DNA of 64,000 bases, from contig JAKSVU010000002.1 in assembly GCA_024413465.1 (NCBI GenBank), forward strand, positions 1 through 64,000. Reading direction: 5' to 3'. The notes below the pieces were generated by a model. It worked only from the letters and a program-made list of their open reading frames with translations, searched no databases and was not told the origin of the DNA. Below, in pieces: positions 14,476-16,170 of this stretch. The DNA comes from Alphaproteobacteria bacterium (lineage in GTDB: Bacteria > Pseudomonadota > Alphaproteobacteria > CAAGCB01 > CAG-977). Within the stretch, counting starts at the first letter, position 1. Each line of letters starts with the position of its first letter. Made by a program: the position numbers and the translations under genes.

Positions 14476-14515
14476 CATTTTAAAAAGAGTCTAATATTTG
14501 ACAAAAAATAAAATG
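14476..14515 (+). repeat. 40-bp direct repeat, copy 1
   Basis: First of three copies of an AT-rich 40-bp sequence beginning CATTTTAAAAAGAGTC and ending ATAAAATG. It differs from copy 3 at one position (CT instead of CC at the centre). The ends form a short inverted repeat (CATTTT / AAAATG). A TTGACA hexamer sits inside each copy. Copy 1 lies 31 bp before copy 2 with no gene between. Confidence 0.9.
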
Positions 14516-14546
14516 AAAGTTGATTGTTTGAAAAAATAGTCGTATG

Positions 14547-14585
14547 ATTTTAAAAAGAGTCCAATATTTGACAAAAAATAAAATG
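14547..14585 (+). repeat. 40-bp direct repeat, copy 2
   Basis: Second copy; identical to copy 3 over 39 bp and lacking only the first C. Its last base abuts the ribosome site of the ATPase gene, so the repeat forms the immediate 5' leader of that gene. Confidence 0.92.
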
Positions 14586-14594
14586 GAGATAAAG

Positions 14595-15848
14595 ATGCTG
14601 ATTAAAAGAGACTTGTACTTAAATAAGTTAATTAGTCATAAACACAATACTTTTATCAAGATTATTTCAGGCATCAGACGTTGCGGAAAATCATTTTTAT
14701 TATTTGAATTATTTAAAAATCATTTAATTCAAAATGGAGTTCCATTATCTCATATCATTACAATTGAATTAGATAATTTTAGAGATGAAAAATACCAAAA
14801 TCCAGAGGAATGTTTTAACTATGTTACTTCTTTGATTCAGGACGACCAAATGTATTATTTACTTTTGGATGAAGTACAATTGATGGATAAGTTTGTTAGT
14901 GTTTTAAATGGATTAATGCGGATTAAGAATTTAGATATTTATGTTACGGGAAGTAATTCAAAATTTTTATCAAATGAAGTTGTTACAGAGTTTCGTGGAA
15001 GAGGAGATGAAATTCGTGTTTATCCACTTAGCTTTTCCGAATTTTATTCAATTAAAGATAAAAATTGGGATGATGCTTGGACAGAATATTGCTTGTATGG
15101 AGGAATGCCTGCTGTTTTGAAATTTGAACAACAAAATGAAAAAGCAAAATATTTACAAGATTTATTTAGAGAAACTTATATCAAAGATATTGTTGATCGT
15201 CACAAAATTATAAATACGGAAGAATTGGAAGAATTACTAAATATAATGTCTTCAAATATCAGTTGTTTGATTAATCCAAAAAAAATAGAAGATACCTTTA
15301 AAAGTTTGAAAAAAGTAACTTTAACTTCTCCAACAATAAAACAATATTTGGACTACTTACAAGATGCGTATATCCTTCAAAAAGTTATGCGTTATGATAT
15401 TAAAGGAAAAAAATATATTAATACGCCATCTAAATATTATTTTACAGACGTAGGATTGAGAAATGCTCGATTAAATTTTAGACAATATGAAGAAACACAT
15501 TTAATGGAAAATATCATTTATAATGAATTAAATATTAGAGGATATCAAGTTGACGTAGGTGAGGTTAAGTTATTGGAGAAAAATAATAAAAATACTTACA
15601 CTGAAAAAACTGCAGAAGTTGATTTCGTTGTTAATCAAGCAAGTAAGCGTTATTATATTCAATCTGTTTTTGATTTACCAAATGCTGAGAAAAAAGAACA
15701 AGAGGAACGATCATTATTGGGGATTAAAGATTTTTTCAAAAAAATCATCGTTGTTAAAACAAATACCCCATTATATCAAGATGATAATGGAATTGTCATT
15801 ATGGGATTGAAAGAATTTTTACTTAATGAAGCATCTTTAAATCTGTAA
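14595..15848 (+). CDS. AAA_14/DUF4143-type ATPase
   Basis: A 417-aa protein of the widespread but poorly understood AAA_14 + DUF4143 family of bacterial and archaeal ATPases. The Walker A loop is 'GIRRCGKSFLL' (about residue 30), Walker B 'YYLLLDEVQLMD' (about 95), followed by 'VTGSNSKFLSNEV' (sensor) and 'FRGRGDEIRVYPLSFSEFY'. The C-terminal DUF4143 part includes 'YYFTDVGLRNARL' and ends in a nuclease-like fold pattern ('EVDFVVN') in which the usual catalytic 'E-x-K' appears as 'YIQS', so nuclease activity is doubtful. The ATG at 14595 has GGAG 6 nt upstream. The gene is exactly bracketed by copies 2 and 3 of a 40-bp repeat, suggesting a mobile cassette. Confidence 0.92.
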   Translation: MLIKRDLYLNKLISHKHNTFIKIISGIRRCGKSFLLFELFKNHLIQNGVPLSHIITIELDNFRDEKYQNPEECFNYVTSLIQDDQMYYLLLDEVQLMDKFVSVLNGLMRIKNLDIYVTGSNSKFLSNEVVTEFRGRGDEIRVYPLSFSEFYSIKDKNWDDAWTEYCLYGGMPAVLKFEQQNEKAKYLQDLFRETYIKDIVDRHKIINTEELEELLNIMSSNISCLINPKKIEDTFKSLKKVTLTSPTIKQYLDYLQDAYILQKVMRYDIKGKKYINTPSKYYFTDVGLRNARLNFRQYEETHLMENIIYNELNIRGYQVDVGEVKLLEKNNKNTYTEKTAEVDFVVNQASKRYYIQSVFDLPNAEKKEQEERSLLGIKDFFKKIIVVKTNTPLYQDDNGIVIMGLKEFLLNEASLNL

Positions 15849-15851
15849 TTT

Positions 15852-15891
15852 CATTTTAAAAAGAGTCCAATATTTGACAAAAAATAAAATG
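15852..15891 (+). repeat. 40-bp direct repeat, copy 3
   Basis: Third copy, beginning 3 nt after the stop of the ATPase gene. With copy 2 it brackets the gene and nothing else. The 279 bp from here to the MarC gene hold no gene I can support; only a short CCCTGCAGGG palindrome near 16050 stands out. Confidence 0.92.
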
Positions 15892-16170
15892 GTAAATATT
15901 TTTTATGAAATTTATCCCGAGAAATAAATTGTTATCAAAATAATTCGATGAGGAGCAAGAGGTTTAGAATTTGTGGTATTTAGCCCCCTCACCAATCTTT
16001 TGTAAGTTTCATTTTTTTAAGAAAAATTCACCAACAAAAGATGTCTTCTCCCTGCAGGGTTAGGTATGAAATGGGGTGTTTTTGTAAAAAAATTTTGTTA
16101 TGATTTTCACCTTGTTTTTTCTATGAAAAGTATGTTATCCTTTGTCTCAAAGAAAAAAGGATAGTTTGTT

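Follow-up and report, generated by a model that had tools for sequence, protein, structure and literature searches.

Gene-specific repeats around the promoter of an AAA_14/DUF4143 ATPase gene: candidate operators on a compact unit that probably spreads horizontally

Three near-identical 40-bp repeats accompany a single ATPase gene in a 64,000-nucleotide stretch of alphaproteobacterial DNA (the window), two of them in front of the gene and one behind it. The arrangement raises the question of whether the repeats delimit a gene cassette that moves by recombination at its ends, as originally predicted from the sequence, or whether they control the gene beside them. Here we report the sites themselves, the recurrence of their geometry across phyla, the specificity of each repeat for its locus, and near-identical copies of the unit in unrelated flanks. 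For DUF4143, AAA_14 and PDC-S01, a literature search with most subscription journals outside its reach retrieved no study of control, sensing or spread, and earlier descriptions may exist.

The ATPase and the repeats at its locus

The gene (14595..15848, + strand) encodes 417 aa; its start codon (ATG, 14595) was chosen by alignment of homologues, and its stop codon ends at 15848. The predicted family identity was confirmed by Pfam matches above cut-off for both AAA_14 (E 1.4e-31) and DUF4143 (E 3.3e-20), and residues 2-412 give a full-length match to PADLOC PDLC04787 (PDC-S01; E 5.3e-117). Seven strong AAA_14 genes are present in the same genome, five of which, the window gene itself counted, match the window protein; elsewhere the number of copies per genome reaches ten. 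Reported to rank fourth in frequency among prokaryotic defence systems (PMC12988326), PDC-S01 was also the individual locus met most often in a survey of rumen genomes (PMC13356809); for most such defence candidates, experimental validation is still pending (PMC12988326). Judged by its sequence, the window ATPase may have a role in phage defence.

A structure model built from 49 aligned sequences (mean pLDDT 90, pTM 0.90) appears, as read from secondary structure and family, to consist of an AAA+ core (residues ~1-150), a winged-helix-like region (~208-283) and a C-terminal PD-(D/E)xK-like fold (300-390). The modelled architecture is that of an ORC/STAND-like AAA+ protein with a winged helix, and ORC/Cdc6 and Apaf-1/CED-4 are among the closest solved structures, at low Foldseek TM-scores (~0.2-0.45), so that a DNA-binding function is deduced from the general architecture; sequence searches of the PDB with the protein gave nothing of use. 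The Walker motifs, E305, D343 and Q356 are among the invariant residues, and position 358 is nearly always A and K in none of the rows examined. The missing catalytic lysine, with E305, D343 and Q356 kept, does not fit an active PD-(D/E)xK nuclease; the occupation of the lysine position by other residues suggests that the domain binds rather than cuts.

The first repeat, P1 (14476..14515, + strand), lies 5' of the -35 element and has the outer ends CATTTTA/TAAAATG and the inner sequence GTC..GAC. The second, P2 (14546..14585, +), lies at the predicted transcription start, and the third, P3 (15852..15891, +), 3 nt 3' of the stop codon. The original description of these sites was accurate: the three copies are real, P2 stops at the ribosome site (GGAGA) and P3 begins just past the stop codon, P1 and P2 are separated by 30-31 bp (31 bp had been given), and the repeat does have the ends CATTTT/AAAATG. 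A search for a 39-bp pattern, allowing at most three mismatches, gave three matches in the window and none in 100 dinucleotide shuffles. P2 begins with G instead of C and is identical to P3 over 40 bp when counted from 14547 and 15853, with the next G included, while P1 differs from P3 at one base; as a palindrome the repeat is weak. The P1-P2 gap is filled by a feature absent from the original prediction, a putative sigma-70 promoter read from the sequence (TTGATT-17-TATGAT; 14520..14548, +), which places the start of the predicted transcript inside P2.

No further copy of the repeat was found in the 2.03-Mb genome, no exact match to the 40-mer in a collection of 85,000 species, and no copy in 11 other genomes of the family save one 3-mismatch match to a 28-bp core. 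The original prediction had named such absence, together with a gene fixed at its locus, as evidence against a mobile cassette; the 40-mer was indeed found nowhere else, yet homologues share the layout with other sequences.

Outside the unit, the window also contains a palindromic repeat, R (15983..16066; CCCCCTCACCAATCTTTTGTAAG...CTCCCTRCAGGG), one of 33 copies in the genome. Seven of these lie within ~1 kb of five of the seven AAA_14/DUF4143 genes (~0.4 expected, an estimate), and the left half of R abuts P1 and P3 of a 67% identical paralogue in this genome (L017), whose P1 and P3 share ~24 extra bp of the interspersed repeat. R may be a preferred landing or recombination site, or may share with the AAA_14 genes a taste for intergenic DNA.

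A repeat pair of conserved spacing among homologues

The comparison drew on 80 relatives with 52-65% identity, taken from genomes of Alphaproteobacteria, Clostridia, Bacteroidota, Spirochaetes, Akkermansia and others; pair statistics were calculated over 84 usable loci and the palindrome test over 85. With the spacing left free, 37 of the 84 loci had an upstream pair scoring above 99% of shuffles (0.84 expected), and the spacing of the pairs was concentrated at 73-77 bp with a mode of 75 bp. P1 holds the same position in homologues, and a perfect TATAAT was found between the copies in 26 of the 40 homologues with a pair at a spacing of 66-80 bp. Such a repeated site over the promoter at conserved spacing, present in 40/84 homologues vs 3/249 neighbouring genes, is best read as a cognate operator pair, a reading drawn from comparison of the loci.

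Homologues with the pair span Alphaproteobacteria, Clostridia, Bacteroidota, Spirochaetes and others, and the pair was also found on Prevotella replicons and a gut phage contig. The sequence of the repeat differs by locus: three loci of the present genome (L003, L017, L024) and one of a congener (L025) each have their own, different repeat, and L017, L024 and L025 all have two upstream copies. The sites are often palindromes of 40-42 bp, and upstream palindromes above 99% of the null were detected at 19/85 loci, typically at ~-55 to -15. Roughly half of the homologues show no detectable pair, among them a branch with P2 only, and distant AAA_14 genes have other upstream geometries (copies 40 bp apart in L032 and L007, a 23-bp tandem in L012). 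Similarity between sites tracks similarity between proteins (r 0.67), as shared descent likewise predicts; testing each column of the protein alignment for co-variation with the site revealed neither a DNA-reading region nor an enrichment in the winged helix.

At the fetched loci with a pair, all extra copies elsewhere are P3s. This third copy is a minority feature, found in 5/84 homologues (L003, L017, L025, L048 and L073, four of them alphaproteobacterial), and no remnant of a right-end half-site was detected in those without it. The proposed repeat-gene-repeat unit is therefore not general. Two further loci have direct repeats of 30-52 bp, not of P sequence, that flank the gene (L118 at -145 and +10; L099 at -177 and +27).

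Movement of the unit in relatives

In an all-against-all comparison of loci, pairs with 80-98% identity mostly shared only the DNA from ~-134 or less to ~+12, with unrelated flanks; L057/L065 formed a syntenic exception, and a few other pairs shared somewhat longer flanks. With a Butyrivibrio unit (L062) as query, copies with 96-99% identity were recovered from further genomes of Lachnospiraceae in at least four unrelated flanks, the left flanks falling into unrelated classes (G063, G326, G064, G406 and a G062-like group). The shared DNA of this group stops 0-11 nt outside P1 on the left and, in four classes, 6-15 nt past the stop codon on the right, ranges which indicate that the ends of the unit are compact without being exact to the nucleotide. 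Some copies are truncated or internally deleted (G408, G490, G491, G241), and one copy (L076/G064) has lost its promoter and retains a single chimeric site made of the left half of P1 and the right half of P2.

The junctions of the L062 group showed neither terminal inverted repeats nor a target duplication, and the neighbours of the window gene that were matched in Pfam are not transposases, as had been predicted; a transposon or insertion sequence was therefore rejected. A search of 79 congeners yielded no clean empty site for L062: in G477 and G478 the two flanks are separated by 814 bp of unrelated filler, so that the left junction is not clean. Copies of L063 (39 relatives) and of the P3-type locus L073 (397 relatives) included none identical enough for the junctions to be read. 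Among three congeners of the window genome there was no empty site, MarC being present without the ATPase in synteny too poor for a comparison, and no excised circle was found.

The idea of a moving gene cassette thus stands in the form of compact single-gene units that extend in relatives from the edge of P1 to just past the stop codon within unrelated flanks, and fails with respect to a unit bounded by repeats. Recombination at the repeat, the route originally proposed, is seen between P1 and P2 in L076, but no excision was found. The case for a mobile unit comes from aligned relatives and not from the window copy, which may itself have arrived by such horizontal movement.

Several loci have unusual surroundings. 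Besides its chimeric site, L076 carries a lone P1-like copy (L076:735-850) 2.2 kb 5' of the ATPase, which precedes the promoter of another gene; its distance to the -10 element equals that of P1 in the ATPase unit. The gene behind it (L076:844-1431) resembles an AbiEi antitoxin by eye, and shared control of a second defence gene is possible. At L263:895-1088 (G530:C454), a P1-promoter-P2 unit stands head to head with its own inverse and shares P2 with it, either a real inverted duplication or an assembly artefact. A circular Prevotella nigrescens record of 2,630 bp (L128; NZ_CP133466.1) consists of a homologue and a TaqI-like specificity gene and matches a larger replicon (L129), in which the ATPase is flanked by two restriction-modification genes, with a serine invertase nearby; the circle was rejected as a case of excision at P, as it appears to have been excised from an invertible restriction-modification locus. 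On an Acinetobacter plasmid, a distant homologue (L152) immediately follows a Qat anti-phage system, with a tyrosine recombinase nearby, and relatives are present in 173 Acinetobacter plasmid records.

Function of the sites and comparison with known systems

We consider it reasonably probable that the gene-specific sites are operators for their own ATPase and that gene and operators together form a compact unit of ~1.4 kb that spreads horizontally. A conserved pair around the promoter points to gene control, and binding of the ATPase to its own P sites would be the simplest source of locus specificity, given that specificity and the winged-helix-like region. The protein would bind P1 5' of the -35 element and P2 at the transcription start, via the winged-helix domain, the nuclease-like domain or both. 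As the two sites are ~seven helical turns apart, the bound protein could bridge them; such autoregulation by looping may keep the promoter closed, to be freed by ATP or a phage-derived signal. P3 would be an additional binding site, and the gene would spread with its operators by itself.

If the repeats were instead recombination sites, a recombinase of the host or a phage, or the ATPase itself, would excise and insert a repeat-gene-repeat element at the 40-bp sites. The third copy just past the stop codon in five loci is in keeping with this, as are the near-identical units whose left end coincides with P1 in unrelated flanks, the P1/P2 chimera and the predicted nuclease-like fold of the ATPase. 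Yet 79/84 homologues have neither P3 nor a half-site in its place, no solo 40-mer was found in the genome or family, and the nuclease-like domain is without its lysine. The repeats also differ between paralogues of one genome, so that a recombinase common to them would fail to recognise some, and the P1-P2 spacing and the position of the promoter suit control sites; we therefore regard such recombination sites as unlikely. A combination of both functions, in which the ATPase recognises its private P sites, regulates its gene and also inserts or excises the 1.4-kb unit without a known transposase, is rather improbable; if true, a very common candidate defence gene would be a new kind of self-spreading single-gene element.

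The repeats might also act as RNA, since the transcript would start with P2 and end with P3, and hairpins could govern its stability or translation or be bound by the protein as a ligand. P2, at the predicted +1, is next to the ribosome site, and many P2 copies could form hairpins; the window copy, however, is a poor palindrome, and Rfam returned no family at gathering score. Moreover, P1 closely matches P2 although it lies 5' of the promoter, and a repeated sequence with one copy that the predicted transcript does not cover must exert at least some of its effect as DNA. There is accordingly little to expect from a purely RNA-level role, whereas conserved spacing, locus specificity and the location of P1 argue for DNA operators. 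Lastly, the repeats could be products of local duplication or slippage that have no role, next to a gene that was simply transferred horizontally. Direct repeats are common in AT-rich DNA, and the extra ~24 bp at P1 and P3 of L017 indicate that larger duplications do occur there, but the recurrence of one geometry in several phyla with sequences that differ, its rarity in neighbouring control genes and the narrow range of spacings already disfavour this origin, which we hold to be very improbable.

Operators, the reading preferred here, give binding and reporter assays a ready DNA target in the form of a locus-specific site pair at the promoter. The pair assigns each site to its protein and marks out the smallest unit that travels, and locus-specific sites would help to explain how up to ten copies coexist in a genome without cross-talk.

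The products of toxin-antitoxin and plasmid partition genes bind repeated or palindromic sites around their own promoters. The ATPase locus resembles these operators in the arrangement of its sites, which its product would bind, and differs in having a single, partnerless protein, 40-bp sites spaced by ~seven turns and, in some loci, a third site 3' of the gene. Integron cassettes likewise combine a single gene with a palindromic site; attC occurs once, behind the gene, and a promoter is usually absent, whereas the ATPase unit has two sites and a promoter in front of the gene. No GTTRRRY core was read in the 40-bp repeat. With PDC-S01 the locus shares its full-length match, the single gene and an ATPase with a PD-(D/E)xK-like domain; the accessible text of the papers that report this system as common, both among rumen genomes and across prokaryotes, describes no operator pair or unit boundaries (PMC12988326, PMC13356809). 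The nearest transposase-less units are the dif modules of Acinetobacter plasmids, in which accessory genes move as small units that lie between short repeats and contain no transposase (PMC6449649, PMC13141974). A dif (Xer) module was ruled out for the ATPase gene because the 40-bp sites differ between paralogues of one genome: dif modules have a common Xer site, and the ATPase units have gene-specific sites that bracket the promoter.
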